This document shows, piece by piece, positions 159 through 60,642 of a stretch of DNA of 64,000 nucleotides. Each line of letters begins with the position of its first letter. The first letter of the stretch is position 1. The position numbers were made by a program, and so were the translations under genes. A model generated the notes under the pieces. That model did not search any database. It had not been told where the DNA came from and saw only the letters and a program-made list of their open reading frames with translations. The DNA is from Malania oleifera (taxonomy: Eukaryota > Streptophyta > Magnoliopsida > Santalales > Ximeniaceae): the NCBI RefSeq assembly GCF_029873635.1, contig NC_080423.1:89697191-89761190 (forward strand), given 5' to 3'.

Positions 159-664
159 TGTTGACTTTTTGAGTCTGGTCCCTAGTTTTGATTATGACAA
201 ACTGCATGTTACTAATGTGTGTGTCTAAGTACTTGAATAGGTTAATAATTCAGATCACACACATGAAAGTGAAGTTGAAGCCAGAATGGGCTTAAAGCAC
301 ATTATCCTAGCTGATTCCATGAAAAGTCAAGAGCAAAAGAAGAAGATATTTGTTTTAATTGTATATGTATGTTTGTTTAATTATTTGGTCTATAATAATT
401 TATGGTTTGTAATATTTGCATCCCATGCATAATGGGTATTTATGCTCAACATGATCATAGATTGACCATAGAGAACCAAATGACCGTAAGGCACCCTTTG
501 GTTAATCGATTCCAGATTTTTAGGGTTAGCTCAAAGACAATAGACTGACTTTAGGTCCCAAGATATCACATAAAAAGTCTCCTATAACTTAGAAGTTACA
601 ATCATGTGAACAGAGGTGATTTTATATGAAAATATGGACTTAAAATAAAATTTTAAAGGGATTC

Positions 665-1020
665 AGTTGACCGAACCCGAACCTATATAAAAGCTTCGGT
701 TGATCGAACTTGCTAGGGTCAACTAGTTGACTATTCAGTCGACCGAACCAAAACCTATATAGAAGCTTCAGTTGACCGAACCTCCCCATATTAAAATGAA
801 CTCCAACGCTCTAGTCGACTAAACCTCTAGTTCAAATTTAACCTGGTCGACTGAATCTCCGAACTCGGTCAACTGAACTTGAGCTGGTCAACCAAACCAC
901 GAAAGTTTAAAATCGCCTCAAAAGTGGTTGACCAAAACCTTAGTTCAAAAATGTCCTAGTCGACCAAACCCAGTAATCTGGTCGACTGAATCTTGAATTT
1001 GGTTGACCAAACCTCTTGAG
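665..1020. repeat. Palindrome cluster (GTCGAC type) in the LTR of D
   Basis: About ten copies of variants of ggtcgaccgaacc occur here, for example cagtcgaccgaacc near 735 and many TpG/CpA variants such as ggttgaccg and ggtcaaccg. Once the insertion of B is removed, the cluster lies roughly 100 bp upstream of D's TATA-like box. The function is unknown. Confidence 0.8.
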
Positions 1021-1097: not shown

Positions 1098-1700
1098 TGT
1101 TGCTATGGGTTATTCCTAGTTTTGATAATGACAAATACTCTTAGTATTTAATGTTTTCCAAGTTTGTGTGCAAGTTTATATTGGCGAAATCAGTTGATGG
1201 CACATGAAAACTTGAAGAAAACAAAGACCCTGAAGCTTTCTCATTATTGTACTTTATATTATTGCTTTATTCGAGTCTGTAATAGTAACATAAGGCAAAG
1301 GTCTATAATAATCTGTATTGCATGCATGTAGAAGCTTATAAGCTCAAACACCTTAGAATGACTCTAGGTCGCTAAACATCACTTAATAATCAAATGACCT
1401 TAGAGGTCGACCGACGCCGAATTTTTTCGGTATACTAAAGAAGACCTAGACTGACCTTAGGACTCCCTATAATTTATAAAAATATGTCTTATAGTCTTAA
1501 ACATTAATCATTATATGAATAGGGTTAATATACATAGGGAATAGAACCGAAATGCATTAAAAATGCATGTTTGGTCGTCCGTACTTTCATAGTGTAAATC
1601 TGTCAATCGACCGAATCGGTCACCAAGTCAACAATTTGACCATGATACGGTCGACTGAACGTGCTCAGTTCAAAATTGCTGGTCGACCAAACTCCCTAGG
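1098..1700 (+). repeat. Element B 5' LTR, first piece
   Basis: It starts TGTTGCTATGGG and aligns with the 3' LTR start at 19740 (TGTTGACCCTACGG) and with what follows. Palindrome variants begin near 1570. The piece ends at the 5-bp target ctagg of element A. Confidence 0.85.
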
Positions 1701-3429
1701 AGTTGGCCTAACAAGGCTTACAATTCTTATTTTGATGATAACAAATCATGATATGTTTAATATGGTTTATTTCAAGTGAAAGTTTTTCAGGAAGAAGACA
1801 AAGCTTAAAGATAGTGATAAAGCATAGAGAGGGTTCAAAGCTCAAAAGAATGATAAAGTTTATGGAGAAAGTACTATTCAAAAAGATCAAGAAAGAAAGA
1901 TGATCAAAAGCTCAAAGATGACAGAAGAACAAGGACTTACTTGAAGACCAAAGGAATAGAGTTTTAAGGATGATTGTATGTAAGTACTTCAAGTAAACTA
2001 CAAATATAAACTGAATTGAAACTCTCATAAATCAAAAGAAACTTAGAAATGTATTTTTAGAAAAACCCTAAAGAATGTTTTTCAAATCAAAGAAAAGAAG
2101 GGTTTAAAGAAGAAATTTAAAAAAAAAAAAAAATAGAAGGACCAGACGACTGCCTCCATGTGGCAGGCGACTGCCCAAATTATATGAGGAATTTTCAAAG
2201 AGGTAGCAGGGTGCCAGGCGACTGCCTGAGCACAACCAGGCGCCTGGGTGGTCATGCCAGGCGACTGCTTGGGTTCTGCTACGCGACTACCAATGTTTTG
2301 TATTTTAAAATTCTTCTATGGCAGGCGACTGCCACTCGAATGTTTGTTTAAAATACTGCAACAAGAAGATTTTTTAAATGGATTTCTTGGGCACTACTCT
2401 TTTGAAAAACTTGGGGATTACTCCAAGTAAACTTGGGGGGCAAGGAATTACTTTTAAACTTCTATAAATAGCTCCAAACTTCAAAGATTTTTACACCAAG
2501 AAATTTTCAACAATCAAAGTTCTCTAAAAAGCTCTTAAACTCTCTTGTGTTCATCCTATTTCAACTATTGAGTTACTGCTGATACAAATTCTGAAGTAGA
2601 GCCTTCAAAGTCTGAATCTTTCAATACTTGGAAAATATTTGGTGATCTAAATTCAGTATTGAGCTTCAATCCTTTTATATTTGATTTACATTGAAGTATT
2701 CTTGTGTTGAATGTTGTACTAACCTACTCTGCTGTGAGAGTGTCTTTTGTACACAAACTTTTCTCTATCTTGGTTCTTGTTTATAGACGATTCAAGGTTG
2801 TACAATCATTGGACCAAACGAGGGAATATCGTTTGGAGAGGCGGGCTCTAACCTAAAGGAAGGAGTGATTGTAATTGGCATTGTTCCACCCATCAACGGA
2901 ATTGAACTAGTGAATCCTTTGGTGGTTTGCCAAAGGCGAGGACGTAGGCTGGGTATAAGCCAAACCTCGTAAAACCTTGTGTCTCTCTCTTCTTCCTTAC
3001 TCTTTATTTTTCAGCAATACTTACAACCTGCGTGTATGCTTTAAATTTTTAAATTCTGTGTATACGGTTGTTAAATAGACTGGAAGATAATTCGTTTTGG
3101 CTTGATCAGCATTGATTGCGGAACCGAAGGGGACTACGTTGGTTGATCATCTTAAACTTATTAATATGAAAGTTTGTTTAAAAACTAAACACAAAGAAGA
3201 AGTGTGAGTGTGGAATAACACAAGGCTTATATAAATTCAGCATGCTTTACACTTTGATATAGGGATACTGATACAAAGATTAAGATGTTGATTATTTTTG
3301 TTGATTGTTTGTGGTTGACTTGAGTTTGTGTTTACTTGTTGTGATTGTTGATATAAAACAAAGTATTAAAAAGAATATAATTTAAAAAATCCAATTCATC
3401 CCCCATCTTGGGAAGCTATCCTAATTTCA
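1701..3429 (+). repeat. Element A 5' LTR
   Basis: It matches 12298-14049 along its length and ends ...cttgggaagctatcctaatttca. A TATA-like box (tctataaata) lies at 2461-2470. A cluster of caggcgactgcc motifs lies upstream, at about 2140-2340. Confidence 0.92.
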
Positions 3430-5090: not shown

Positions 5091-7214
5091 TATTAGCTTT
5101 ACCGTGATCCCAAGAGGGGGGGGGGGTGAATTGGTATTTTTAAAATTTAATCCCTAGGTCAATCTCTTAACACCAGTATAATCACAACCCTATGGTCAAT
5201 CTAGTGCAATTAAAGTAAATATATACCAGAAAGTAAATAAAGAAATTTAATCAATCACACAAGCACTAGAAAGCAGTAAAGAAAGGGTGACACGCAGAAA
5301 TGTTATCGAGGTTTGGCTAATTGCCTACGTCTCCGCCTTGGCTAACAAGCACAAGGATTACCACTATAATGCTCACTTAGATGGGTGGAGTGGCACCTAT
5401 ACAAACCAGGTCAATTAGCACAGCGCTGACCTTAACCTTTACAACAATCCTTACTGGGCTGGATCACCGCTCCCTTAGGCCATGCCTGGAATCACTCAGA
5501 TTTACAATCAAATGGTACAATAGAAAAGTACTTTCACATAAAGCATATGTGTACCCAAATGCGTTCAATCACATACACCACAAATGATTCAATATGTAAG
5601 CTCAGTGTGGTCTAAATAGTTCAACTCTCAAATGTATTTTCTATCAATGTAGTGAGTATGTGAGAGTGTCAACAATCAATCTTTGTATTTCAAGATATTC
5701 TCAATCAAGATGCTCAAACAAAGATATCACTCAAGTTTCAAATATTCCAAAGTGCATAATATATCAATCACGTGAATAGTGTATATGCTTGGTTTGCAAG
5801 ATATATGTAATCTTTGTATTCATAAAGATGATATGTATTTGAATACATATTGCAACAAAGACCAATATCACAAATATATCAATGTAAATCCCACAAGATA
5901 TTTGAGTAAGTTTAGAAAACGTTTTGCAACCCAAAACAAATACAAAACTTCTTAAGTTATTGCAATGAAAATGCAACACTCGGAAGTTCGATACAAGTCT
6001 TCTTAGGATAGACTTATTAGCAAAGCCCCCTAAGAGAACTTAGGTTTTGCTTTCGTAAAATCAAATCACTCAAACATGAATGGGAGAGCAAACCTCTTTG
6101 CACTAAAAACTCAATACACTTACAAAGGATTTGGAGAGATGTATAAAGTAAGATTGAGTGGTTTTAGAGAGAGTATGAGTAGTAGGAAGATTTTTGGCTT
6201 GAGAGAAATTTTTTACTTTGTTTTGCTAATCTTATTACTAATTTTTCCAAATGAAGGGGTATATATAGACACCCCATGAATTATGATCGTTGGGGACAAG
6301 GCTGATATTATTAGAAAAGTTTAATGGTGTTTTAATTAATTTAACCCTGTTTAAAACATTTAAACCACAGTAAAAATCAAGGCAACCCAAGAGGTCCGGT
6401 CGACCAGAACACTTTTGGTCGACTGAAGTTCATATGTCTCGGTCGACCAGGACATTTTTGAACTAGGGACTCAGTCGACCGAAAGTGCATGTCTGAGGTG
6501 ATTTTTCAATTTTACTGAGGTTCGGTCGACTAAGCTATTTTGAACTGAATGGTTCGGTCGACCAGAGAGTTGAGATTTCTCTCGAAGACCCTTGGTCGAC
6601 AAGACAGTTGTAATACAAATTGGCTCGGTCGACCAGGTGATCAAAATGTTGACCCCAGGAGGTTTCGGTTGACCGGGCAATTTGAACTATAATGGTTTAG
6701 TTGATCGGGTTGAGGTCAAATTCTTGACCCAGTTCGGATTCGGTCGACAGGGGCAAAAAGAACTGCCAAGGTTAGTCGACCGAAAGTGCACAAAGTGTGC
6801 ATTTCGGTCCTGTTATGATTCACACAAATCCTATTGAAGTGCCTAACATTCATAGGTGCAATGGTGAGTATCCTAGGTTCATTTAAGGGTCCTTTTGAAG
6901 ACACCAAAAAAATTTTGTGTCGTTCGACTAAACCCTAAGGTCATTCTAAGGTCATTTGTATTATGAGCTTACGTATTATACCATGCATGTGGGGTGTGTG
7001 ATTATTACAAGTAAACACCCTAATTTACTATTATAGACCCTTTACAAAAATGAATTATATATTACAACATGAAATTATTGGGTCTTGACTCTTCACTATC
7101 TTCCATAAGCATTAAGATCTTTCAATCTGAGTTCCTGCACATAACCTCAAACACTCATTAGATAAAATGAATTTTTGTCATAATCAAAATCGGGCGTGAC
7201 CTATAAGGTCAACA
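5091..7214 (-). mobile_element. Element K: solo LTR of a SIRE-lineage element, inserted in element A
   Basis: A perfect 5-bp TSD (aacac at 5086-5090 and 7215-7219) flanks a single LTR with no body. Read on the minus strand it starts TGTTGACCTTATAGG near 7214, like the LTRs of D, B and J, and ends beside a C-rich tract (poly-G on plus near 5115). A TATA-like box (gtatatatag) lies at 6259-6268. It separates gag from protease in A. Solo LTRs of this kind usually arise by recombination between the two LTRs of a full element. Confidence 0.92.
6395..6930. repeat. Palindrome cluster (GTCGAC type) in solo LTR K
   Basis: About a dozen variants of cggtcgaccg lie upstream (in LTR sense) of K's TATA-like box at 6259-6268. 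Examples are ccggtcgaccag near 6396 and agtcgaccgaaag near 6473. The nearest copy is about 130 bp from the TATA-like box. Confidence 0.8.
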
Positions 7215-7219
7215 AACAC

Positions 7220-8850: not shown

Positions 8851-8879
8851 CTTCAAAAGGAATAACCACTTGAGCCTCA

Positions 8880-10199
8880 TTGAAAAATATTTGCAATCAT
8901 TATGCCTATTTATCTCAAGATGAACCCAAGAATATTGAAGAAACCTTAAAAGATGATTCTTGGATTATAGCTATGCAAGAGGAACTAAATCAATTTGAAA
9001 CAAGTCAAGTGTGGGAACTTACACCTAAACTCAAAGACAAATCAATTATAGGAACTAAATGGGTATTTAGAAATAAAAAGGATGAAAATGGGACAATTAT
9101 AAGAAATAAAGTTAGGCTAGTAGCACAAGGTTATAATCAAGAAGAAGGTATTGATTATGATGAAACCTTTGCTCCCATAGCAAGAATGGAAGCAATTAGG
9201 ATGCTCTTAACTAATGCAGCCTATAAGGATTTCAAATTATACCAAATGGACGTAAAAAGTACTTTCTTAAATGGGTATATAAATGAAGAAGTATATTTCA
9301 AACAACCTTCAGGTTTTGAAAATTTTAAAAATCCAGATCATGTATTTAAGTTAACAAAAGCTTTATGTGAATTGAAACAAGCTCCTAGAGCTTGGTATGA
9401 AAGACCAAGCAAGTTCCTAATTCAAAACAATTTTTTAAGAGGAAAGATAAATAATACTTTGTTTATAAAAACTAAAAACAAAGGCATGCTTATAGTAAAA
9501 ATTTATGTTGATGATATTATTTTTGGAGCAACTCATGAGGAATTGTGTAATGAATTTGCTAAGTCTATACAAAAAGAGTTTGAGATGATTATGAAGGGAG
9601 AGTTAAATTACTTCCTAGGGTTACAAAACAAACAAGCAAAAAATGGAACTTTCATAAATCAAACTAAATATATTAAATACATGTTAAAGAAGTTTGATAT
9701 GGAAGAAAGTAAACCTATAGGAACTCCCATGAGCACCTTAACTAGTGTTGACAAGGATGAAAAAGGGAAACAAGTAGATACCAAGCATTACGAAGGCATG
9801 ATAGGAAGCTTACTTTACTTAACAGGAAGTAGACCAGATATTATGTTTAGCGTATGTATGTATGCTAGGTTCCAATCGGCTCTTAAGGAATCACACCAAT
9901 TAGCAGTTAAAAGAATCCTTAGATATCTACTAGGCACACTTGAACTAGGCTTATGGTATACAAAGGGAACTGAATTTGAAATGATAAGCTATTTTGATAC
10001 AGACTTTGCTGGATGCAAGATAGATAGAAAAAGCACTAGTGGAACTTGTCATTTTCTTGGAAACTCTTTAGTCTCCTGGTCTTCAAAGAAACAAAACTCT
10101 GTGGCATTATCCACAGTAAAAGCAGAACACATAGCAGTAGGGAGTTGTTGTGCTCAAACATTTTATATGAAACAACAATTAAAAGATTTCAAAATTTAA
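8880..10199 (+). pseudogene. Element A reverse transcriptase and RNase H region (fossil)
   Basis: This is the best-preserved stretch of A, with 439 codons open. Reverse transcriptase signatures are WVFRNKKDENG, ETFAPIARMEAIR, QMDVKSTFLNGYI, the catalytic-type IYVDDIIFG near 9510, and LCELKQAPRAWYE. RNase H signatures are SYFDTDFAGCKIDRKSTSG near 9990 and VKAEHIAVGSCCAQ near 10115. All are standard for copia pol. The close match to the SIRE consensus agrees with the low divergence between A's LTRs. Confidence 0.9.
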
Positions 10200-10477
10200 T
10201 ATCAAACTATTCCAATAAAATGTGACAAAAAAAGTACCATAAATATTTCAAAAAATCCGGTATCTCACTCAAGAACAAAACATATTGACATAAGAACATC
10301 ACTTCTTGAGATATCATGTGCAAAATAAAGACATAATGCTAGAATTTGTAAATACAAATGACCAATTAGTACATATATTCACAAAACCACTCTCTGAAGA
10401 ACGATGCATATTCATTAGAAGAGAATTAGTAATGATGCATATATGAGAAGCAAACTAAATAAGCTCTCTGCTTGGCA

Positions 10478-10612
10478 GGTGACTGCCAGGCTACTGACTT
10501 TCAATTTTTTGTTTGACAGGCGCCTGCCTTGTCCTAGCAGGTGACTGCCTAGCTGTGGGTAGGGTTTAAAACCCTATTTTATGCCTTTTAACTTCCATCA
10601 GGCGCCTGCCAC
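10478..10612. repeat. Palindrome block (GGCGCC type) in the body of element A, downstream of pol
   Basis: Four or five copies of the motif found in A's LTRs recur here: ggcaggtgactgccagg near 10483, caggcgcctg at 10517-10526 and again at 10599-10608, and gcaggtgactgcc near 10541. Two are perfect 10-bp palindromes. The block lies between pol and the env-like region. Confidence 0.8.
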
Positions 10613-10758
10613 TTCTCCTCTCTCTCCGAAAATCCTCATTCATACTCTCTTCAGCCAAATTCCTCTTCCAAATTAGCCTAAAACCATGAATCAAACCTAC
10701 CCTCCACATCAAATCGCATAAAAACCTAGGGTTTATTAGCCTTTCTCTTCAAAACAAA

Positions 10759-12297: not shown

Positions 12298-14049
12298 TGT
12301 TGGCCTAACAAGGCTTACAATTCTTATTTTGATGATAACAAATCATGATATGTTTAATATGGTTTATTTCAAGTGAAAGTTTTTTAGGAAGAAAGCAAAG
12401 CTTAAAGATAGTGACAAAGCTTAGAGAGAGTTCAAAGTTCAAAAGGATGATAAAGTTTATGGAGAAAATACTATTCAAAAAGATCAAGAAAGAAAGATGA
12501 TCAGAAGCTCAAAGATGATAGAAGAAAAAAGACTTACATGAAGATCAAAGGAATAGAGTTTTAAGGATGATTGTATGTAAGTACTTCAAGTAAACTACAA
12601 ATATAAACTGAATTGAAGCTCTCATAAATCAAAAGAAACTTAGAAATGTATTTTTAGAAAAACCCTAAAGTATGTTTTTGAAATTAAAGAAAAGAAGGGT
12701 TTAAAGAAGAAAAGTTTAAAAAAAAAAAAAAACAGAAGGGTCAGGCAACTGCCTCCATGTGGCAAGCGATTGCCCAAATTAAATGAGGAATTTTCAAAGA
12801 GGCAGTAGGGTGCCAGGCAACTGCCTGAGCACAACTAGGCACCTGGGTGGTCATGCCAGGTGACTGCCTGGGTTCTGGCAGGCGACTACCAGTGTTCTGT
12901 GTTTTAAAATTCTTCTATGGCAAGCGACTGCCAGGTTGTGGCAGGCGATTGCCACTCAAACGTTTGTTTAAAATACTCCAATGGGAAGATTTTTTAAATG
13001 AATTTCTTGAGCACAACTTTTTTGAAAAACTTGGGGATTACTCCAACTAAACTTGGGGGGCAAGGAACTACTTTTAAACTTCTATAAATAGCCCCAAACT
13101 TCAAAGATTTTTACACCAAGAAATTTCCAACAATCAAAGTTCTCTAAAAAGCCCTCAAACTCTCTTGTGTTCATCCTACTTCAACTATTAAGTTACTGCA
13201 GATACAAATTCCGAAGTAGAGCCTTCAAAGTCTGAATCTTTCAATACTTGGAAAATATTTGGTAATCTAAATTCAGTATTGAGCTTCAATCCTTTTATAT
13301 TTGATTTACTTTGAAGTATTTTTATGCTGAATGTTGTACTAACCATCTCTGCTGTGAGAGTGTCTTTTATACAAAACTTTTCTCTATCTTGGTTCTTGTT
13401 TATATACGATTCAAGGTTGTAGAATCGTTGGGCCAAAAGAGAGAATATCGTTTGGAGAGGCGGGCTCTAACCTAAAGGAAGGAGTGATTGTAATTGGTAT
13501 TGTTCCACCCATCAACAGAACTGAACTAGTGAATCCTTTGGTGGTTTCCCAAAGGCGAGGACGTAGGCTAGGTATAAGCCGAATCTCGTAAAACCTTGTG
13601 TCTCTCTCTTCTTCCTTACTCTTTATTTTTCAGCAATACTTACAACCTGCATGTATGCTTTAAAATTGTTAAATTCTGAGTGTACGATTGTTAAATAGAT
13701 CGGAAGATAATTCATTTTGACTTGATCCACATTGATTGCGGAAACCGAAAGGGACTACGTTGGTTGATCATTCTAAACTTATTAATTTGAAAGTTTGTTT
13801 AAAAACTAAACACAAAGAAGAAGTGTGAGTGTGGAATAACATGGGGCTTATATAAATTCAGCGTGCTTTACACTTTGATACAAGGCTGTTGATACAAAGA
13901 TTAAGATATTTACTATTTTTGTTGATTGGTTGTAGTTGACTTGAGTTTGTGTTTACTTGTTGTGATTGTTGATATAAAACAAAGTATTAAAAAGAATATA
14001 ATTTTTAAAATCCAATTCAACCCCCTATTGGGAAGCTATCCTAATTTCA
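12298..14049 (+). repeat. Element A 3' LTR
   Basis: It starts TGTTGGCCTAACAAGG and ends CTAATTTCA. A TATA-like box (tctataaata) lies at 13081-13090. The motif cluster lies at about 12740-12960, with eight copies of variants of ggcaggcgactgcc, ending about 120 bp upstream of the TATA-like box. Confidence 0.93.
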
Positions 14050-15605
14050 CTATTTTTAACACTTTGACCTTTCGGTCTACTGACCAGGAAAGTACTTCAT
14101 TGCCCTAGTCGACCGAAGGTTCTCGAGAGATGTCACAACTATTTGGTCAACCGAACTTTTTAGATCAAAGTGTCTTGGTCGACCAAACCATGTAGAAATG
14201 GAAAAATGGCCTTGGAACCCTTAGTAATTTGAACTGAAAGTTTGGGCCTTGGAACCCTTAGTAATTTGAACTGAAAGTTTGGTCGACCAAACTTTCAGTT
14301 CAAATTTCTCCCAATCGACCGAACTTCGTCACTAGGTTAACCAAACCTCGCATCAGGTCAACTGGTGCTCTCGGGTTGGAGAATAATTTTTACAGCCATT
14401 AAAGTTTTTAAACAAGATTAATTTTCTTAATGGTTTTTTAAAACACATTTAATAATACCCTTGGTGTCCCCAACGGTCATAATTTTGCCTATGCCTATAT
14501 ATATCTCTTCATTTGCAAAATTAAGGCAAGATTAGCAAATAGGATTAAGCCAAAATTCTTTGAAAATTTCCAAATCCTATTTTATCCTACTAAGTCCATA
14601 ACACTCAAATACCTTCATTCCTTTGAGAAATCTTACCTTGTGAGTGTTTATTGCTTGTTATATTGTGCTAGAAACCCTCACTTGTATATTACACATTTGA
14701 TTTTCATATTGAGGGTTGAGCTAGATTTTTCCCCCGATTTCATTTGATAAATATTTGGTTGGGAAAAATCATATAGCTAAGTGATTTTGCATTATCATTG
14801 CAATACTCATTTGGGCTTATACTTTTGTGTGCAAAAATATTTTACCAAGTTAGATTTCAAACAACTCTTGTGCTAGATACATTTGAAAAAATATTTTTGA
14901 GGTTGTTTGAATACTCTGATTGGCATCTTTGAAATCCTAAGCTTGCATTGAGATATTTTTTATTGTGTTTCAAAGAAAACCTTGTTTATACACTCTTGTG
15001 CGTATTTGAGATTATCCATAACCTTGAGTGTTGATTGCACACATAGAGCACCGAGCTTATAGTTCTTATATCATTAAGGCGCATTGATTTATTATGCATA
15101 TTATAGTACATATCTGCTTAGTGTGAGAAGCATATTTCCGTGTACCAAAAACTTTAGACACATTTTTTGTATTCTAGGCATGGGCCTGAAGAGGGAGACT
15201 AACCCTAGTAAATAGTCTCGGACTGACTTAGACCCAGTTAGGAAAGTTAGGTGCGCCATCGTGGTGTTGGGTCAGCCCCTTGAATTGACCTAACTGTAAC
15301 CGGTGCCGCTCCACCCATTAAGTGAGCTTTAGTGGAATCCTTGGGCTTGTGAGCTAGAGGCGAGGACGTAGGCACAGTTAGCCGAACCCCGATAACATTT
15401 CTTGTGCGTGCTTTTAATTTTTGCATTTTAAATTCCAGCACATGAATGTTTATATTTTACTATCATGAATGATTGGGTTTTTAATTGCATAGACAGACCC
15501 TAGGTTAATTAATACAACTATTAAACCAATTGACCTAGGCGATAATTTTTAAATACCCAATTCATCCCCACCCCCCCCCCTCTTGGGAATACACCAAATC
15601 TAACA
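14050..15605 (+). repeat. Element B 5' LTR, second piece
   Basis: It continues the LTR after element A. Palindromes of the ggtcgaccgaa type run to about 14370, including a local tandem repeat of about 46 bp near 14210-14280 that is absent from the 3' copy. A TATA-like box (cctatatatatctc) lies near 14493. The piece ends at a C-rich tract, cttgggaatacacc, and TAACA at 15605. Confidence 0.85.
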
Positions 15606-15607
15606 AT

Positions 15608-15620
15608 TGGTATCAAAGCC
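15608..15620 (+). other. Primer-binding site of element B
   Basis: tggtatcaaagcc follows the LTR end and resembles the initiator-Met tRNA complement used by the neighbouring copia elements. Confidence 0.8.
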
Positions 15621-15658
15621 TCGTGACATTGACTTAAACGTTTTTTCTAAAGATCGAG

Positions 15659-16798: not shown

Positions 16799-16800
16799 GT

Positions 16801-19739: not shown

Positions 19740-21314
19740 TGTTGACCCTACGGGTCATTCCCAATTTTGATAATGAAAAATACTCTTGGTATTTAATGCT
19801 TTCCAAGTTTGTGTGTAGGTTCATATTGGCAAAATCAGTTAATGGCACATGAAGACTTAAAGAAAACAAAGACCTTGAAGCCTTCTCATTATTGTATTTT
19901 ATATTATTGCTTTATTCGGGTTTGTAATAGTAACATAGGGCAAAAATATGTAATAATTTGCATTGCATGCATGTAGGAACTTATAAGCTCAAAGACCTTA
20001 GAACGACTCTAGGTCCCTAGACATCACTTGAAAATTAAATAACCTTAGACAAGACGGTCAACTAACACCAGATTTTTTCGGTGTCCTAAAGAAGATCTAG
20101 ATTGACCTTAGGACTCCCTATAATTTATAAAAATATTCCCTATAGTCTTAAACATTAATTATTATATGAATAGGGTTAATATACATAGGGAATAAAACTG
20201 AAATGCGTTAATAATGCATGTTCGGTCAACCGTACTTTCATAGTGTAAATTTGTCGGTCGACTGAACCGGTGACTAGGTCAACAGTTTGACCATGATACG
20301 GTTGACTAAATTTGCTTAGTTCAAATATGTTGGTCGACTGAACTCCCTAGGGTCAACACTTTGACCTTTCGGTCGACCGACCAGGAAAGTACTTCAACGC
20401 CTTGGTCGACCGAAGGTCCTCAGGACATGCCACAACTGTCTGGTCGACCAAACTTTTTAGTTCAAAGTGTTTCGGTTGACCGAACAGCACTGAAATGAAA
20501 AAATCACCTTGGAGCCCTTAGTCTGGTCGACCGAACTTTCAGTTCAAATTTCTCCCGATTGACCGAACTTCGTCACTAAGTCAACCGAACCTCACGTCCG
20601 GTCGACCGGTGCTCTCGGGTTGGACAATAATTTTTACTACGGTTAAAGTTTTTAAACGAGGTTAATTTTCTTAATGATTTTTTAAAACATATTTAATAAT
20701 ACCCTTGGTGTCCCCAACGGTCATAATTTTGCTTATGCCTATATATATCTCTTCATTTGCAAAATTAAGGCAAGATTAGCAAATAGGATTAAACCAAAAT
20801 TCTCTGAAATTTTCCAAATCCTATTTTCTCCTACTAAGTCCATAAAACTCAAATACCTTCATTCCTTTGAGAAATCTTACCTTGTGAGTGTTTATTGCTT
20901 GTTATATTATGCTAGAAACGCTCACTTATATATTACACATTTGATTTTCATATTGAGGGTTGAGCTAGATTTTCCCCCTAATTTCATTTGATAAATATTT
21001 GGTTGGGAAAAATCATATAACTAAGTGAGTTTGCATTGTCATTACAATACTCATTTGGGCTTATACTTTTGTGTACAAAAATATTTTACAAAGGTAGATT
21101 TCAAACAACTCTTGTGCTAGATACATTTGAGAAAATATTTTTGAGGTTGTTTGAGTACTCTGATTGGCATCTTTGAAACCCTAAGCTTGCATTGAGATAT
21201 TTTATATTGTGTTTCAAAGAAAACATTGTTTATACACTCTTGTGCATATTTGAGATTATCCATAACCTTGAGTGTTGATTGCACACATAGAGCACCGAAC
21301 TTATAGTTCTTACA
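19740..21314 (+). repeat. Element B 3' LTR, first piece
   Basis: It starts TGTTGACCCTACGGGTCAT, which contains the short inverted repeat gaccc.tacgggtc. It aligns with the 5' LTR except for insertion A. A TATA-like box (cctatatatatct) lies at about 20738. The piece ends at the target ttaca of solo LTR C. Confidence 0.88.
20215..20612. repeat. Palindrome cluster (GTCGAC type) in the B 3' LTR
   Basis: About twelve copies in 400 bp include cggtcgaccg at 20370-20379 and the perfect 12-bp palindrome ccggtcgaccgg at 20598-20609. Degenerate copies mostly show cg changed to tg or ca. The cluster ends about 125 bp upstream of the TATA-like box. Confidence 0.88.
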
Positions 21315-23074
21315 TGTTGGCCTAACAAGATCTTTCAATCAGTTTTGGTGATAACAAACAAATGACTATTTAACTTGAAAAGATTGAGTTTTTGAGTTTC
21401 AATAAATATGGATTAAGTGTGATTTAAGCAAAGTTCAAGTATAGCTCAAGTATGGTTCAAGAGAAGATCAAGTATAAATCAAGTATGGGACAACTACTCA
21501 AATGATTCAAAGAGAATCTAATATATTTGAAGCTCAAGGAAATGTTTCAAAGAACATCAAGAGCAAAGCATGAAAAAGAACTCAAGCATGTCTTATGAAA
21601 GCTTAGGAAACATATTTGTAAGTATTTGAAAAGTTAAAATATCATTTGAAATATTTTTTGAAGCTTTTTCAAGAGATTATAAAGAATTAGTACTTATTTA
21701 AGTATATTGAATTAAGTTTTTATAAAGATCATAAGGGAGCAAAATAGTTTTAAAGAAAGATATTTTATAAAACAAGATTTTAATAGCTCAGATGACTGAA
21801 TTTTTTAGTTTAGATGACTAAAGTAGAGACTTCAGATGACTGAACTTTAAGTTTAGACATCTGAAGAATTACTTCAGACGTCTGAAGATTAAGTGTAGAC
21901 GTCTAAAGAATTTATGGAACAAGACAGAAAGTGGCAGTACAGTTCAGACGTCTGAACTCGCGACTTCAGACATCTAAATCTGGAACTTCAGACATCTGAA
22001 CCCAGACTTCAGACATCTGACCCTATATCTAGTTCTATTTTAAAGGGGTTTCAGGAACTTCAGACGTCTGACCTCGAATCCTCAAACGTCTGAACACTGT
22101 TCTAAAATTATAAATACATGGTTCTTCTGAATCAAAAATTATACCAAGCATTGAAATTCTCTCAAAGCTCTCTTACTCTCAAAATCTCTTTTGATCAATC
22201 TCTTGCAAAGCTGAAAGTACTCTTGTTCTGATATTCTTGCTCATCAAATCCTGCAGAATTACTGATTTCTTCTCTGGAGAAAAGGATTTTGGTGAATTCT
22301 TTGAAAAGCTTCAAAAGTTTATTTCATTCTTGATATTTTATCTTTTGAAGTACATAGTTTTGATTTGTACTAATTTGCTCTTTGTGTAAGCTTCTCTTAT
22401 ACACCAGCTTTTGATATTTCTCTTGTAGATTTTGGACGATACCAGGCTATGGGATCGTTGACCAAACAAGGGCATATTATTTGGAGAAGGCGGGCTCTAG
22501 CATTGGCCAAAGGAGTGGTTGTAAACAGGTGTTGTTCCACCTGGTAACGGAACTACCATGGTGGAACACTTCGGTGTTTTGCCAAGGGCGAGGACATAGG
22601 CTGTGTTGAAACCGAACCTCGTAAAAAATCTTCTGTCTTTCTCTCTACTTTACATACTATACTTGCTGTGTTGTATGATTTAAAAAGTGCAGGTCACAGG
22701 TTTCAAAGAGAAAGAAACAAAGACTTTTAGTATTTAGAAAGTATGTTTCGATTAACAGTTTGTGGAAACCCAAAAGGGAGTACGTTGGTTAATCTGTGGA
22801 AATCTTAATCAAGAGAAGTGCATACTAAAATCTTATTCAAAGAAGGTGATAAACATCCACAAGGAAATCAACAAAAGCAAAAATATTTTTGATTGAGTGA
22901 TTGAATTGTTTTAGCTTTATTGATTGTCTTGTTCATTTAAATTACAAGTATTCTAAAGTGTGGTTATCAGTTATCAGTTGTACTTTCTTTAGTATCTTAA
23001 GCAAAAGATTAAAAATTATCAAAATCAAAAAGATTCCAATTCACCCCCCTCTTGGGAAGCTATTGCTAATTTCA
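21315..23074 (+). mobile_element. Element C: solo LTR of an element related to A
   Basis: It starts TGTTGGCCTAACAAG and ends ...cttgggaagctattgctaatttca, the same ends as A's LTR. Near-perfect target repeats flank it (ttaca at 21310-21314, ttaga at 23075-23079), and the empty site is visible in the other LTR of B near 15070. A TATA-like box (ttataaatac) lies near 22109. Its length of 1.76 kb equals A's LTR, but the palindrome cassette differs. Confidence 0.9.
21787..22098. repeat. Palindrome cluster (GACGTC type) in solo LTR C
   Basis: Twelve or so variants of ttcagacgtctgaac occur here. The best is a perfect 16-bp palindrome, cttcagacgtctgaag, at 21872-21887. Degenerate copies read gacatc or gatgac at the centre. 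The cluster ends about 10 bp upstream of the TATA-like box. Confidence 0.88.
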
Positions 23075-33809: not shown

Positions 33810-34405
33810 GGTTGATGTTCGTTTAACTCGGATACGTGCAATGGAAGCACACAAGCACAAATGAATCAATTAACAACACCAGTGCAATTACTCGATAATG
33901 AAATATGCTCAAGAAGTAATCAAACAATAATAAAAAGAATCATAAATACAACTAGAATGCACAAGATTTACGTGGTTCGGCTATAGCCTACGTCCATGGG
34001 AGTAGCACTTCGATTTTCACTATGATAAATGTCAAAGCTATAATCTTTGGGTTACAATATTGTTTAAGTATGAACCCAATGCGTACAGAATTTACAGTAT
34101 ATCTAAACTACATCTATAGCGATCTCCCGGAGAAAATCCCTCTGATTAGCCCAATATACAGGCCCCTAATTTGAATTTACATAATTTGCACCAACTGAAA
34201 CTATTGACGGTTTAGCCAAATCGTCGACGATTTGTTTTTGAAAAAAATGTCTCATGCATTTTGCTTGAAACTGTCGACCTTTAGGGCCCAATCTGTCAAC
34301 GGTTTGCTTTCCTCTTGCAGACTTCTCTCATGCCATTGTTCGTGGCTTCACGTAACTTTCTCTGGTCCATGTGAGTCGCTTTGAATATGAACCACATCCC
34401 CAATA
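33810..34405 (-). repeat. Element H 3' LTR
   Basis: It aligns with 38705-39302. Between about 34205 and 34305 it holds aatcgtcgacgatt and similar short palindromes with a tcga centre. Confidence 0.88.
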
Positions 34406-38704: not shown

Positions 38705-39302
38705 TGTTGATGCTCGTTTAACTCGAATACACACAGCGAAAGCACACAATCACACACAAATCAATCAACAACACCAATGCTATCACTCAATGATGAAATA
38801 TACTCAAGAAGCAATCAAACAATAATAAGAAGAATCATAAACACAACTAGAACACACAAGATTTAAGTGGTTCGGCAATAGCGTATGTCCACGGGAGCAG
38901 CACTTCGGTTTTCACTATGATCAATGTCAAAGCTACAATCTATAGGTTACAATATTGTTTAAGTATGAACTCATTGCGTACACAAGTGTTTTAGTATATC
39001 TAAACTACATTTGTAGTGATCCCTCGGAGGAAAATCCTCCGATTAGCCCAATCTACAAGCCTCCGATGTGAATTTACGTAATTTGCGCCGATTGAAACCA
39101 TCGAAAATTTAGCCAAATTGTCAATAGTTAGATGTTGATAAAAATTTCTTCTTCATTTTGCCTAAAACTGTCGACGGTTAGGGCCTAATCCGTCGACGGT
39201 TTGCCTTCCTTGTGCAGACTTCTCTTATGCCATTGTCCCTCGCTTCACGTAACTTTCTCCAGTGCATGTGATTCACTCTGAATATGAGCCAAATCCCCAA
39301 CA
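38705..39302 (-). repeat. Element H 5' LTR
   Basis: It starts TGTTGATGCTCG and ends CCCCAACA on the plus strand. The palindrome ccgtcgacgg lies at 39190-39199, with a second tgtcgacgg near 39169. Confidence 0.9.
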
Positions 39303-44617: not shown

Positions 44618-44946
44618 TGTAGAAACCCAAACCCAGAAAATAAAAGAAATAAATAAGAAATGAAGAAAGGGAATTTAAAAAGGGAAAAGCAGTAGGGTTC
44701 GTCAATGAATCCTTGTTTTTGTTGACGAATGCCCTTCTATGGTTTGTCAACAAAGTTCATGCGTTGTCGACAAAGAAATCCCGAATGATATGAATTTCAA
44801 GCTTAAGGTTCGTCGACGAACCTTTCCTTTCGTCGACGAATGTCTTTCTACAATTCGTCGACGAAGGCACCATTTCGTCGATGAAGACGTCCAGGACAAC
44901 GGTCTATAAATAGGTTTTAACTTTACTTCTTCATTAAGAAACTAAA

Positions 44947-47100: not shown

Positions 47101-48600
47101 TCATGATGGATCCTAGGGGAAAGGATGTTATGGCTGGAGGGGATAATCATGTGGATATCTCCAATGAGGACAATGTTGATGCCTCGGCAGTGCTATGAAG
47201 TATAGCACGGCGGGCTTGGAAGGAAAATCGGAGGGATTCCTAAGAGCAGAGTTAGCTATTAGCTAATAGGGGCTACACGTTCCAGAAGTTTACCAGGGTG
47301 AGTCTGCCAGCGTTTTCAGGAGGAGCGAACCCGATTGTAGCTGAACATTGGGTTTAGGAGATGGAGGAGCTGCTGGGTGTGCTAGAGTGCCCAGAGGAAC
47401 AGAAGGTGTGGTTTGCCACTTTTAAACTGGTAGGGGAAGTGAAGAGGTCGTGGAGATCGGCAAAGATGGTATAGGAACAACGTCTAGGACATATATCTAT
47501 TACCTGGAGTCGTTTTAAGGAGGTTTTCTTCGACAGATACTTCCTTATTGCCACTTGAGAGGCAAAGTCAGAGGAGTTCTTACATCTTACTCAAGGGCCC
47601 ATGACAGTGCAGCAGTATGCGGCCAGTTTCGTGGAGCTATCCCATTTTTCTCCGCACATGGTCCCGAATGAGCTGAAGAAGACTCAAATGTTTGAGAGAG
47701 GCTTGAGGCAGGGAATATGCACCCAGGTGATGGCGTTGTTGACTTAGAATTTCTCTAAGCTGGTGGAAAGGGCCACGATAGTTGAGGCCAGTATTGAGGA
47801 GGGGGGAGAGTAGCAAACCAGAAGAAGAGGCCCTTGCCTCAGGGTTTTAGACTAGCACTAGCTAGGGCTTATGGAAGCGGCATGGTAATTTCTGGGGCCA
47901 GTGAAAGGAGATGGGGTACCGAGGCCATCAGGGGGGTTTGCAGCATCCTATCTGTTCCAGATGCCATCAGAGGCATTAGAGCAAGTGTAGGGGAGGACCA
48001 GCTGCCTGCTGCCGGTGCGGTGGGGCAGGATATCTAGAACGAGATTGCCACGCGACATTGAGTTACGCAACTCTATAGCCTCAGTATAGGTAGGTAACTA
48101 GGCACCTCGAGGTGGGCACCAGAGGGGCACTACCTAGGCGCAGGTGTATTCTATGACTCCGGGTGACACCGAGCACGCAGGAGATATGGTTACAGATAAC
48201 ATTTATGTGCTTTCAAATAAAGTTCTTGTGCTCTTTGATTAAGGTGCGATGCACTCTTTTGTGTCTCGGGGATTTATTAAACTGTGCGGGTAGAAACACA
48301 CCTTTTAGATGCCAAGTTAGCAGTGGTTACACCGACAGGGTCGGTAATAATGTGAAACAAGGTGATCGGGGATCACCTAATGGAGATTCAGGGAATAAGG
48401 TTGTTTTCTAGTCTAATTGTTTTTGACATGCATGTGATCAATATTATTTTGGGGATGGATTGGCTAGCATCCAGTTATATGAGCATTGGCTGCCACAGAA
48501 AGGAGGTAGTGTTCAGACCTTTAGGGGAGCAAGAGTTCAAATTTTTTGGGTCGTATGTGCACTTTGAACCAGAAATCCTTTCAGCGATTTAGGCAAATAG
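47101..48600 (+). pseudogene. Element G gag and protease region (fossil)
   Basis: The region starts with MDPRGKDVMAGGDNH. Gag segments include LPAFSGGANPIVAEHW near 47308, [20 protein letters not shown] near 47600, and a zinc-knuckle stretch near 48010-48050 (CRCGGAGYLERDC-like). A protease-like segment LVLFD..AMHSFVS lies near 48228. The region is broken. Confidence 0.78.
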
Positions 48601-48849
48601 GTTGCTTCGAGATAGCTGCTAGGGGAATCTTGCATTTGTGAAACCGAAGGAGGAACTTAAGCTGGAGGATATCCCAGTGATAGGGAGTTCTTAAACGTCT
48701 TTTGAGAAGTTTACTGGGATTGCCTCCTAATCGCGAGGTGGAGTTTGCCATCGAGTTGAATCCGGGGATAGCACCGATTTTTAAGGCTCCATAAAGAATA
48801 GCTCTTGCTGAACTAAAGGAGTTAAAGGAACAACTACACGAACTTTTGG

Positions 48850-50000
48850 ATAAGGGTTTTATCAAGCCGAGCATATCACCCTAGGGAGCACCAGTGTTGT
48901 TTGTAAAGAAGAAGGATGGGTCGATGAGGATGTGCATTGACTATAGGGAAATTAATAAGGTGACAGTGAAGAACAAGTACCCATTACACTGTATAGACGA
49001 TCTATTTGACTAGTTAAAGGGCACACATGTTTTCTCTAAGATTGATATGCAATCTAGGTATCATCAGTTGAAGGTGAAATCAGAGGATGTACCAAAGATG
49101 GCTTTTTGTACCAGATATAGCCATTATGAATTCTTAGTTATGTCGTTCGGTTTGACAAATGCTTTGATGGCATTCATAGATTTGATGAACAGGGTGTTCC
49201 ATGAGTACCTAGATCAGTTCGTGGTGGTGTTCATCGATGACATCCTGATTTATTCTAGGAGTCTTGCAGAGCATGAAGCTCATTTGAGACTGGTGCTTTA
49301 GGTACTTAAAGAGAAGAGGTTATTTGCTAAATTCAAGAAATACGAGTTCTGGCTGGAACAAGTGGCATTTTTGGGACATGTAGTGTCTAGGAAAGGAATT
49401 TTAGTATACCCAAGCAAAGTAGAGACAATAGTTGATTGGGCGAGACTGAAGAACGTACATGATATTAGAAATTTCTTGGGTTTGGTAGGGTACTATCGTC
49501 GATTCATCGAGGGTTTCTCTAGGCTATCACATTCTTTGACACAACTTACGAGGAAGAATAGTAAGTTTGAGTGGACTAGGGAGTGTGAGCAGAGTTTCTA
49601 AGAATTGAAGCAGTAACTAGTCACGACCCCATTGTTGACCATTCCATCAGGGGACGGTGGTTTTGTGATTTACAATGACGCATCTCAGAAAGGACTCGGG
49701 TGTGTATTTATGGAGCAGGGGAAAGTTATTGTGTATGATTCTCATCAACTCAAGGAGTACGAGAAGAACTACCCTATGCACGACTTGGAGCTAGCAGCAG
49801 TGGTTTTTGCACTAAAGATTTGGCGACACTACCTATATGGTGATAGGTGCAAGATCTTTACTGTTTATAAGAGTCTTAAATACTTCTTCACCCAGAAGGA
49901 GTTGAATATGAGGCAACGCAGATGGCTTGAGTTGATAAAGGACTATGACTGTACCATTAGTTACCATCCCGGGAAAGCTTGTGGTAGCTGATGCGTTGAG
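48850..50000 (+). pseudogene. Element G reverse transcriptase and RNase H region (fossil)
   Basis: RT segments are [19 protein letters not shown] near 48905, [16 protein letters not shown] near 49032, [20 protein letters not shown] near 49140 and [18 protein letters not shown] near 49222. The bridge has FLGHVVSRKGI near 49368. RNase H has [20 protein letters not shown] near 49666, and [19 protein letters not shown] near 49780. All are typical gypsy motifs. The region is broken. Confidence 0.9.
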
Positions 50001-50199
50001 TCGGAAATGAGTGGGTGCGTTAGCTTCAGAGGTTGTTGTACAGCATCAGATAAGGATGGACTTGGAGAGGTTGGACATAGAGTTGGTGGACGGGGATCCA
50101 CAGGGGTTCATTTTTCTGTTTGACGCAGAGTTGATGAAAATTGTGGAGAAGGTACGAAGTGAACTGCAAACTGTCTTCAATGTTTCTGAGGATGAGGTT

Positions 50200-51345
50200 C
50201 TCAGATTTCACACCAAACCATGTGTACCTAATGACACAGAGATTAAAAGAATGATTTTGGAGGAAGCTTATCTCTCTCTTTACACTATTCATCCAGGAAG
50301 CATGAAGATGTATAGAGATCTGCGAGAATCATTTTGGTAGAGCAACATGAAGAGGGAGATTGCTAGAATCGTTGAACAGTGCCTAACATTTAAGTAGGTT
50401 AAAGCGGAGCACTAGAGGCAAACGAGACCACTTCAAACCCTTGATATCCCTAAATGGAAGTGAGATCATATCTCAATGGATTATGTAACAGGGTTGCCTT
50501 TAGCGGTGCATGGACAAAATGCCATCTGGGTAATAGTGAATCGGCTGACAAAGACTGTGCACTTTGTTCTGATTAGAGTAAGTTATTCTATGAATATACT
50601 GACAGAGATTTATGTGCAAGAGATTATATGGCTTCATGGCGTCCCGGTTTCCATTGTTTCATATCAAGATCCACGGTTCACCTTTCGGTTCTAGAAGAGT
50701 TTGTGGGACACCTTGGGATCTAACTCATATAAGGTTTTGTATGGTTTCCAGTGTTGATCTCCATTGTACTGGAATAAGGTAGGCGAGTGGCAGATTTTGG
50801 GGCCAAAGCTTGTTCAAAAGACCTCTGCAAAGGTCGAGCTTATTAGGGAGAGGATTAAAGCAACCCAAAATCGGTAGAATAGTTATGTGGATACTCACCG
50901 ACGAGAGTTAAAGTTTGGAATTGGTGATATGATATTTCTAAGTATTGCTTCGATGAAAGGGGCGATGAGGTTTGAGAAGAAAGGTAAGTTAAGCCCTCGG
51001 TACATTGGGTCATTTGAGATTTTGGAAAGGATTGGTCCAGTTGCCAATCAAGTGGCATTACCCCCAGCATTGTCTCAAGTTCAAGATGTTTTTTACGTAT
51101 AAGTGTTGAGGAAGTATGTGCTAGATCCTTCGCACGTGATAAGTTATGAATCTTTGGAGATCGGGGATGCTTTGGCTTACGAGGAGGTACCAATTCAGAT
51201 TTTGGATTAAAAAATACAGGAACTGCATACTAAGGACATACCGTTAGTGAAAGTGTTATGGTAGAATCATGCAGTAGATGAGGCTTCTTGGGAGTTAGAA
51301 GCAGAAATATGCCAGAAATACCCGTGGCTTTTAGGAGAGGTTTAA
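50200..51345 (+). pseudogene. Element G integrase region with chromodomain (fossil)
   Basis: The zinc-binding N-terminal part is recognisable near 50250-50400 (EEAYLSLYTIHPGSMKMYRD), then the core with MDYVTGLPLAVHGQNAIWVI near 50476 and LHGVPVSIVSYQDPRFTFRF near 50633. A chromodomain-like tail follows near 51240-51345 (LVKVLW.NHAVDEASWELE). Chromodomains of this type place the element in the Tekay/Del clade. The region is broken. Confidence 0.82.
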
Positions 51346-51679: not shown

Positions 51680-51974
51680 TGTAGAAACCCAAACCCAGAA
51701 AATAAAAGAAATAGATAAGAAATGAAGAAAGGGAATTTAAAAAGGGCAAAGTAGTAGGGTTTGTCGACGAATCCCCATTTTCATTGACGAATGCCCTTCT
51801 ATGGTTTATCAACAAAGTTCAGGCATTGTCAACGAAGTGATCCCGAATGACAGGAATTTTAGGCTTAAGGTCCTTTTGCAATTCGTCAACGAAGGCACCA
51901 TTTCTTCGACGAAGACAACCAGGTCAACGGTCTATAAATAGGTTTTAACTTTACTTCTTCATTAAGAAACTAAA

Positions 51975-58560: not shown

Positions 58561-60642
58561 TGTTGGCTTTGGTATATTCCCAAGAGGGGGGGTGAATTGG
58601 GTATTTAAAATTTTCCTCTTAGGTTCAACTAATCTAGCAATAGTATTACTCAACTTAGGGTCTGTCTATGCAATTATAAACCCAATCATTCACAATGTAA
58701 AATAAAAACATTCATGTGCTGGAATTTAAAATGCAAAAATTAAAAGCACGCACAAAAATGTTATCGGGGTTCGTCCAACTGTGCCTACATTCCTACCTCT
58801 AACTCGCAAGTCCGAGGATTCCACTAAAGTTCACTTAATGGGTGGAGCGACACCGGTTACAACCAGGTCAATTAGCACAGGGTTGACCTCAACCTTTACA
58901 AGCAAGTCAATTAGTGAGGTTAACCTCAACCTACACCTTACCAGGATGGTGCACCTAACTTTCCTAACTAGGTCTAAGTCAATCCGAGACTATTCTACAT
59001 AACTAGTCTCTCTCTTCAGGCCCACGCCTAGAATACAACCAATGATATAAAATTTACGTACAAACAAATGCTTCTTACACAAGCTGATATATACCACTAC
59101 GCACAATATAATTAATGCGCATCAATGATGTATGAACTATAAGCTTGGTGCTTTACGTGTGCAATCAACACTCAAAGTTATGTCTATAAACAATCAAGCA
59201 CAAGAGTGTTCTAACAAGCTATTTCTTTGAAACTAGTTATAACAAATCTCAATACTTGATTAGGGTTTCAAAGATGCTGATCAAATATTTAAACTAATTC
59301 AAAATATTTTCCTTCAATGAAATAAGTACAAGAGTAGTTTGAAGTATATAGCTTGTAAAAAAAAATATTTTGCACACAAAAAATTATTGCCATAGGAATC
59401 TTTGTAATGACAATGTAAAGATCTTTAAGCTAATGAGTTTTTCCCAACACTAGATTTATTAAATAAAAATATGTGGGAAAACTCTTGCTTGACTCCCCAA
59501 AAACAATAACAATCAATCAAGAAAAACAATGGGAGTATAAGCAATTTATAACAAGCAATAGAACAATAAGAAACTCTCACAAAGCTATGATTAATCAAGG
59601 AAATAGATGTATGAGAGTATTTGAAGTAAAATAGGCAAGATAAGCTTTTAGAAATTGAGAGAATTTTTGACTAATTATCCTGCTAATCTCTACTTAATTT
59701 GCACAAATGAGATCCTATATATAGACAAAGGCCAAATTATAATCGTTGGGGACATAGGGGTCATTATTAGGAATGTCTTAAAACCAATCAGGAAAATTAA
59801 CCCCATTTAATTAAATTTAATCTCGGTAAAAAAATAAGTAACCCGAGAGGTTTTGGGTGGCTGAACCTTAGTTCAGTCGCCCGAATAGACTCAGTTTAAA
59901 AATCTATTTTTAAATGTTTGGGTGCATGAGTCTTGGTTCAATTGGCTGAACCAAGGCTATTTTCCTACTGTCCGCGGTTCGGGTGCCTTGTCTAATATTC
60001 GTTTAACCGAACTGACAAGTTCGATCGCCTGAGACCATTTTGAATGCAAATGTTCAATCGCCCAGGTTGGTGAAAAGTACCTTGACACAAGTTCGGTCAC
60101 TCGAGGGCGATATGTTCACTACAAGTTTGGTTGGCTGAAACCTAGTCAACCCGTTGACTTCTTTGTAGTTCGGGCGCCCGAGGTGTTTTGAACACCAAGG
60201 TTTGGTCGCTTGACCTCTCACAGTTTTTTTAATTGTAAGTCCAATTTTGCCTCAGTTAATTCCCCTGATATGGTAAGGGATGTTGGGGATATGTGCACTA
60301 AGTGTTGGGACCTAGGGTCTTTTTACCCTACCGAAAAAATTCGGCATCGGTCGACTGAAGGGTGTTCCCTGAGGTCATTCGATCTTGTTGAACTTATAAA
60401 TCCTACATGCATGTCATGCATTAATTATTATAGACCTTTCCTATATTACTATTATAGACCCAATATTAAACTTATAAAATTACAACAATGAATCTTCTGA
60501 GTCTTCTTTTGCTTCAAGCCATTGTGTGACACATGCCATCAATATGATCCAGCTAGTATGATTCTGTACACAAACTTGAAAGCCATCAAATACAAAGAGT
60601 ATTTGTCATTATCAAAATCGGGTATGACCAATAGGGTCAACA
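58561..60642 (-). repeat. Element J 5' LTR
   Basis: On the minus strand it starts TGTTGACCCTATTGGTCAT and ends TACCAAAGCCAACA, like B. A TATA-like box (ctatatatag on both strands) lies at 59714-59724. The adjacent primer site reads ttggtatcag on minus, ending at 58560. Confidence 0.88.
59850..60235. repeat. Palindrome cluster (GGCGCC type) in the J 5' LTR
   Basis: About ten variants of ttcgggcgcccgaac occur here, including the perfect 12-bp palindrome tcgggcgcccga at 60170-60181 and degraded forms such as gttcggtcgcttg and tcagtcgcccgaat. The cluster occupies the position held by the GTCGAC cluster in B, ending about 130 bp upstream of the TATA-like box. Confidence 0.83.

Follow-up and report, generated by a model that had tools for sequence, protein, structure and literature searches.

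The closest described system is the palindromic repeated motif (RM) of the Sireviruses, which belong to Ty1/copia. In the available part of Bousios et al. (2010; PMC2829016), 13 of 21 Sireviruses carry an RM, with at least 8 copies per element and 3-14 copies in the 3′ LTR; 92% of the 3′ LTR copies lie in the LTR's upper half, where they span 300-500 bp, and the cluster is found upstream of a conserved mid-LTR TATA box. Elements that bear an env-like gene have additional RM copies in the linker before it. The RM of Vitis is CGGTCGACCG, and Tnd-1 is excepted from the CGG-CCG signature. The RM is absent from the 30 classic copia elements of that paper, and no analysis of Ty3/gypsy LTRs was found in the part of its text available to us. 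In maize, the palindrome regions of Sireviruses are described as small-RNA hotspots and as cis-regulatory (PMC5311732 and PMC10760457, in their passages on Bousios et al. 2016, Genome Research). Tnt1-type LTR boxes, as cited in PMC2829016 and PMC10760457, likewise consist of cis-elements that lie upstream of the promoter, are repeated and in some cases form palindromes; they come in two or three repeats (PMC2829016), as opposed to the 4-13 dyads at a fixed distance that we describe here.

A preliminary description of the window, by which we mean the whole stretch of 64,000 nucleotides of Malania oleifera DNA analyzed here, had reported palindrome arrays in many of its LTRs and knew of no description of them as a general LTR feature. 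For elements A, B, C, D and J, which look like Sireviruses, a description does exist: the Sirevirus part is a published feature (PMC2829016), with the same motif, confirmed in another genome. The difference from the published RM is that similar arrays are also present here in a Ty3/gypsy element (K) and in a non-Sirevirus copia element, so that the suggestion of a reach beyond one LTR group is borne out in this genome. By their sequence, these arrays appear to extend the known Sirevirus feature, and for Ty3/gypsy they may be new. In the literature that we searched, which covers few subscription journals and includes the available part of PMC3414828, we recognized no palindrome arrays in Ty3/gypsy LTRs, and a search for GTCGAC palindromes in retrotransposon LTRs found no paper. 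The mentions of palindromes in the accessible portions of PMC11963269, PMC11302176, PMC9780303 and PMC5738225 are references or insertion targets.

Elements of the window and their palindrome arrays

The window is crowded with nested LTR retrotransposons. Since the preliminary description left its letters A-K undefined, they are assigned to elements here by inference, with LTR pairs mapped by self-comparison, PBS and PPT signals, coding domains, and reading of the sequence by eye. Element A (1702-14049) is nested in the 5′ LTR of element B (1103 to 23624), which is itself nested in an LTR of D. A solo LTR, C (21316-23070), is nested in the 3′ LTR of B, and a solo LTR of Sirevirus type lies on the minus strand inside A (5091-7213). 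The remaining elements are J (minus strand, 5′ LTR 58562-60650), a copia element with 0.59-kb LTRs (33811-39300, minus strand), and K (44619-53746), with two LTRs of ~2.05 kb each. Among the retrotransposons there is also a host gene, a 598-codon open frame of the xanthine/uracil permease family (PF00860) at 30976-32769 on the plus strand.

By their sequence signals, A, B, C, D, J and the solo LTR at 5091-7213 look like Sireviruses. A has a copia reverse transcriptase (RVT_2, 8874..10196, plus strand, E 1.2e-65), and the reverse transcriptase of a member of the C family is 78% identical to it. The PBS junction ATTGGTATCAGAGC follows the 5′ LTR exactly in A (3430) and with one mismatch in B (15606) and J (58547); within the window it was found for none of C, D and the solo LTR at 5091-7213. 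For the PPT AGGGGGAG, followed by AT/TG at the 3′ LTR, the picture is mixed: it has one mismatch each in A (12288), B (19730) and D (149), and was not found for J. A polyC-rich integrase signal of the CCAATTCA-polyC-TTGGGA type can be read by eye close to the 3′ end of the LTR in A, B, C, J and the solo LTR. Reverse transcriptase probes gave no match in the interiors of B (15606-19740) and J (55475-58560), which hold a gag-like frame; both elements are possibly non-autonomous.

The copia element at 33811-39300 is, by LTR length, PBS, polyC signal and reverse transcriptase, not a Sirevirus. Its LTRs are ~0.59 kb long, its PBS has two mismatches, no polyC stretch was found at the LTR 3′ end, and its reverse transcriptase pieces are 26-39% identical to the reverse transcriptase of A. 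K is, by its coding domains, a Ty3/gypsy element. Separate open pieces at 48356..51099 (plus strand) encode, in this order, the aspartyl protease domain RVP_2, RVT_1, RNase H, a weak Integrase_H2C2 zinc domain (below cut-off) and SH3_Tf2-1, a Ty3/gypsy set rather than the Ty1/copia domains of a Sirevirus.

As an example of an array, the 3′ LTR of B carries, at 20215..20612 on the plus strand, 13 copies of CGGTCGACCG or its variants with at most 3 mismatches (20222-20608), and the TATA box at 20740 is 131 bp past the last copy. The 5′ array of B is separated by element A into a first half (1404..1689, plus strand) and a second half that extends, together with the TATA box (14496), over 14050..14500 (plus strand). 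The solo LTR inside A holds CGGTCGACCG-type copies at 6397..6930 on the minus strand (TATA box at 6267). These two have the same motif as the Vitis RM, clustered like it upstream of a TATA box. The array of D (660..1018, plus strand) consists of GGTCGACC and decayed copies; the LTR of D is broken at about 1102 and continues from 23625, with TATAAATA near 23651. The LTRs of A contain variant arrays, at 2143..2342 (5′ LTR, plus strand, mostly CAGGCGACTG with one CAGGCGCCTG, TATA box at 2463) and 12742..12951 (3′ LTR, plus strand, TATA box at 13083), and the linker 3′ of pol holds five more copies of the CAGGCGCCTG type (10476..10608, plus strand; shuffles have a mean of 0.58 and a maximum of 3). 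The solo LTR C has CAGACGTCTG-type copies at 21789..22092 (plus strand), with TATAAATA at 22109. In J there is a degenerate array (59874..60357, minus strand) with one exact CGGGCGCCCG, and GAAC follows several of its copies.

Compared with the published RM, B, C, D and the solo LTR at 5091-7213 have at least 8 copies, A has 6-8 near-palindromic copies per LTR in addition to the 5 in its linker, and J is unconvincing. The CGG-CCG signature is present in the motif of B and the solo LTR (CGGTCGACCG), while A (CAGGCGCCTG), C (CAGACGTCTG) and K are without it, and the cores of A and J are mostly imperfect dyads. The likeness to the maize clusters is that of a putative regulatory region of the LTR rich in palindromes.

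Two observations concern the relatives of C. Most of those listed match the array to about 22102 and not the core promoter beyond (22092-22140); by this comparison, the same array is followed by another TATA region in the solo C copy. In the C family, a PF20167 (Transposase_32) domain lies downstream of the reverse transcriptase in an env-like position (2589-3200 of locus L085).

The 5′ LTR of K has its array at 44698..44885 (plus strand), with eight TTCGTCGACGAA-type copies, three of them exact, and TATAAATA at 44905; the array of the 3′ LTR is at 51760..51913 (plus strand), with TATAAATA at 51933. The 5′ LTR of the non-Sirevirus copia element contains four decayed AAACCGTCGACGGTTT-type sites (39095..39202, minus strand), and its 3′ LTR the same four at 34198..34305 (minus strand, coordinates within a base or two). 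This pair failed a test for 10-bp palindromes; the sites become visible when 22 LTRs of the family are compared, with a mean of 3.5 copies vs. 0.02 in shuffles. In one member of this copia family (L124), the third and fourth sites share an arm change, of AAATAGTTGACTATTT type, which in the fourth is on both sides, a hint of concerted change in one copy.

A further family, N, was found at 9564 of a 200-kb stretch of contig 1, which is another chromosome than that of the window. Two of its 9-kb stretches had ambiguous coding domains and no PBS was found in them, so we leave N as an unclassified LTR family; beside one N array there is a PF20167 match below cut-off, again in an env-like position (4935-5249 of locus L065). 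When the LTRs of A, B, C, J, K, the solo LTR, the copia element and N are compared by blastn, the only matches are those of Sirevirus-type LTRs among themselves and those of the copia LTR pair. The motifs of K, the 33.8-39.3 kb copia element and N nevertheless have the core GTCGAC in common.

Comparison with shuffled sequence and distance to the TATA box

How many palindromes should we expect by chance? The window has 27 exact CG-centered palindromes of at least 10 bp; in 20 dinucleotide shuffles the mean is 5.75, and no shuffle has more than 9. Palindromes of every kind number 172 vs. 81 in shuffles, and those centered on AT and TA are also numerous. GTCGAC is the top over-represented palindromic hexamer both in the window, where it ranks first of 3980 hexamers (40 seen, 3.0 expected), and in the 200-kb sample of contig 1, where it ranks third of 4082 (51 seen, 7.2 expected).

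We scanned the window without bias for at least 6 copies of one 10-bp palindrome within 400 bp, allowing 2 mismatches. This gave 11 arrays, and not one in any of 3 local dinucleotide shuffles. Eight of the 11 are in LTRs upstream of a TATA box. The three outside LTR promoters are at 31199-31580 (in the GC-rich permease gene), 42717-42910, and 57778-58124 (in the gag region of J). The one at 42717-42910 consists of six copies of a TTGAGCTCAA-like palindrome and is outside any assigned LTR. The scan missed the 3′ LTR of K, J, and the copia pair. From 12 control segments, 10 are within the range of shuffles; the other two are the solo LTR at 5091-7213 and the permease gene. The same scan of 200 kb of contig 1 finds 25 arrays vs. 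0 in 3 shuffles, 12 of them with a GTCGAC core. We hand-picked 14 of the 25 for a close look, the other 11 being partly tandem repeats. Of the picked arrays, 11 have CTATAWA within 160 bp on one side, compared to 486 of 5000 random segments. One of them, with TCGTCGACGA copies, lies at 108.4-125.3 kb of that sample in an element of Sirevirus type, as judged by its polyC signal and a gag match.

For individual LTRs, we counted copies with at most 3 mismatches and compared them with the mean of 200 shuffles. The counts are 6 vs. 0.7 (A, 5′), 8 vs. 0.8 (A, 3′), 14 vs. 1.6 (B, 3′), 11 vs. 2.0 (C), 13 vs. 2.2 (D), 12 vs. 1.5 (solo LTR), 8 vs. 0.4 (K, 5′) and 5 vs. 0.1 (K, 3′), and in A, B, C, D, the solo LTR and K they exceed the maximum of the 200 shuffles. 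J is weakly palindromic, with 6 copies vs. 0.7 in shuffles and a single exact one, and in a free motif search its best motif is no better than in shuffles. As a second control we used 200 random re-orderings of the motif letters, some of which are near the motif itself; their means are 0.1-2.0, but their maximum equals the observed count for both LTRs of A, for C and for J. On the whole, the clusters claimed in the preliminary description hold up for most of the LTRs that it names, J being weak. A figure of 8-12 copies per LTR is too high for the 33.8-39.3 kb copia element, which has four.

The arrays also keep a fixed place before the TATA box. The distance from array end to TATA box is 131 bp in both LTRs of A and both LTRs of B, 129 bp in the solo LTR, 150 bp in J, 16 bp in C, and 19 bp in both LTRs of K. 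In the K family (22 arrays, including 20 fetched of 39 other places listed), the arrays hold 6-10 copies among these best matches, and the distance is 19 bp in 12 of 22 loci and 18 bp in one; the searched TATA spelling, CTATAAATA, is absent from the other 9. For B, the searched spelling is present in 14 of 21 loci, again best matches, at 110-136 bp. Among the matches listed for family N (20 places fetched of 41 others), each of the 21 loci has 8 copies, with 9 bp between the end of the array and the TATAAA downstream.

A CG at the center of the dyad had also been claimed. The motif words found here do have it, but many copies have TG or CA instead: in K, the center is CG in 104, TG in 46 and CA in 37 of 195 matches, some of them by chance, and in C the numbers are 82, 69 and 67 of 232. 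In Table 3 of PMC2829016, CG is at the exact dyad of 3 of 13 motifs (Vitis, Usier and Tnd-1), therefore CG at the dyad is no general rule.

Constraint and decay of the motif copies

We aligned the arrays of five families, in which the query is the copy in the window or in the 200-kb stretch: K (22 rows), B (21), N (21), C (20) and copia (22). The fetched loci (20, 20, 20, 19 and 20, respectively) are among the best BLAST matches and not a random sample. Because cytosine decay inflates the motif columns, we use a test restricted to transversions; this test was picked after the result for all substitutions in B, and K is significant either way.

We observe that the motifs of B, K and N change by transversion 2-4 times more slowly than their spacers. 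The pairwise transversion rate in K is 0.0135 in the motif vs. 0.0493 in the spacer (0 of 10000 permutations, 0 of 196 slid masks), in B 0.0208 vs. 0.0778 (0 of 10000 permutations, 3 of 392 slid masks), and in N 0.0117 vs. 0.0265 (191 of 10000 permutations, 0 of 193 slid masks). C has no constraint (0.0222 in the motif vs. 0.0171 in the spacer, 8099 of 10000 permutations); with a likeness of about 88-93% to the query, its loci are young. The copia family has no significant constraint either (0.0578 vs. 0.0795 in the spacer, 1418 of 10000; 0.0575 in the rest of the LTR). When all changes at non-CpG columns are counted, K has 0.029 in the motif vs. 0.180 in the spacer, while in B the two are not separated (0.153 vs. 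0.173, 2302 of 10000). In K, positions T2, T5 and A11 are invariant at all 8 sites, and A8 nearly so.

The CpG columns of the K motif differ at 0.356, and 94% of these differences are transitions, as are 94% of those at the motif CpG columns of B. CpG columns in spacers and downstream likewise differ mostly by transitions. Such changes are as expected of methylated cytosines. Where methylation decay is heavy, a test confined to transversions offers a simple means of making selection at the promoter sites of LTRs visible.

Proposed upstream activating regions and other readings

What could such arrays do? We think it fairly likely that they are upstream activating regions of the LTR promoters, made of dyad sites for a host DNA-binding protein, probably a dimer. 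Each array would offer four to about thirteen dyad-symmetric sites to a sequence-specific protein; binding, dimer and activation are all inferred. The distance from the sites to the TATA box that follows is typical of each family, and many sites jointly would recruit the transcription machinery. Duplication and template switching may each contribute to the growth in copy number, and once an element has inserted, its sites would become methylated, and then decay. The regulatory module of the preliminary description is well supported by the fixed place before the TATA box and of the slower motif transversions in three of five families, whereas C and copia give no signal. An observation against activating sites is found in B, in which a GAAC flank follows 70 of 167 copies and the mirrored 5′ GTTC precedes 16 of 167; full symmetry of the site would predict no such bias. 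Perhaps the flank is read too, by the factor or by a protein that acts with it, or duplication on the same strand may have spread the copies. The mostly imperfect dyads of A and J, the lack of separation between motif and spacer for all substitutions in B, and the three arrays of the window outside LTR promoters also weigh against this reading.

The alternative offered in the same preliminary description is hairpins in the transcript. More broadly, on a reading by RNA structure, the palindromes would act in the U3 of the 3′ LTR, as hairpins or copy-to-copy duplexes, and serve for instance as small-RNA templates or in RNA dimerization. We regard this as unlikely. The predicted folding of the arrays is indeed stronger than that of shuffles, with z-scores of -4.66 (B), -5.28 (K) and -5.65 (C), and the maize palindrome regions are reported as small-RNA hotspots (PMC5311732 and PMC10760457, in the parts available). 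But any group of repeated palindromes should fold in this way, and a gap-free palindrome of 10-12 bp alone is, by established base-pairing rules, a poor hairpin. Pairs changed on both sides to another Watson-Crick pair are not in excess over shuffles in any family: 15 vs. 22.3 in K, 7 vs. 9.8 in N, 28 vs. 32.8 in B, 6 vs. 7.7 in C, and 13 vs. 19.5 at the four copia sites. Double transversions are few, one in K (0.05 expected, reached in 92 of 2000 shuffles), two in copia (0.8 expected, 330 of 2000), and none in N, B and C. Wobble-compatible changes show no preference in K (69 vs. 62). In B they do (146 vs. 76), mainly at the outermost pair (78 vs. 23, compared to 68 vs. 51 inside), which is T-G in many members of the family, and we dropped this excess as hairpin evidence. 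The hairpin reading was rejected, strong z-scores notwithstanding, as covariation and wobble gave it no support.

From these sequence comparisons we favor protein-DNA sites over RNA hairpins, because the copies decay from C to T and their arms have no compensatory excess, and because a fixed sequence is better explained by a site that a protein reads on DNA than by the need for pairing alone. Between the two options that had been named, a dimeric factor fits better than hairpins.

Arrays without function could also be the neutral by-product of tandem duplication and of template switching at palindromes, which seems to us improbable. The best support for it is a perfect palindrome of 44 bp in the 5′ LTR of B (14263..14306, plus strand), found when the two B LTRs are compared side by side. 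The 3′ LTR keeps only its right-hand arm (about 20525-20555), and in the 5′ LTR the 37-bp unit that holds the new arm is a tandem duplicate. It would seem that the left arm arose as a reverse-complement copy of the right one, and that duplication of the 37-bp unit came afterwards. Such a palindrome, missing in the sister LTR, is the trace expected of template switching, so neutral processes can build symmetry. Tandem repeats elsewhere likewise yield palindrome arrays, and the lack of constraint in C and the copia family fits this reading. Neutral growth does not account for exactly 8 copies at a fixed TATA distance in all 21 N loci among the matches listed, for transversion rates below those of spacers in B, K and N, or for the same core in families without alignable sequence. 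Very improbable is a platform for host silencing, in which the arrays are mainly dense symmetric CpG sites that attract methylation: the almost exclusive transitions at the motif CpG columns of K and B agree with it, but such decay is expected anywhere in silent elements, and neither the conserved non-CpG positions of K nor the TATA spacing is explained by it.

Taking the arrays as binding sites for a host protein, could it be the same protein in all of them? Because the GTCGAC core is shared without alignable LTR sequence, Sireviruses, non-Sirevirus copia and Ty3/gypsy may have arrived by convergence at one host factor or at related ones. More tentatively, several LTR lineages from two superfamilies might, each on its own, have adopted a single host protein that reads the GTCGAC dyad, as a shared promoter switch with 4-13 sites in each; we see this as possible but rather doubtful. 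If true, unrelated retrotransposons would share one promoter switch, each with its own fixed TATA distance. The Ty3/gypsy and non-Sirevirus copia arrays suggest that palindromic arrays may be a convergent promoter design, and a single hexamer would provide a testable handle on a host factor that possibly activates several lineages of retrotransposons. A literature search for GTCGAC as a known binding site returned nothing useful by title and abstract. The CBF-type site is RYCGAC. When its CpG decays, GGTCGACC yields TTGACC, a W-box.
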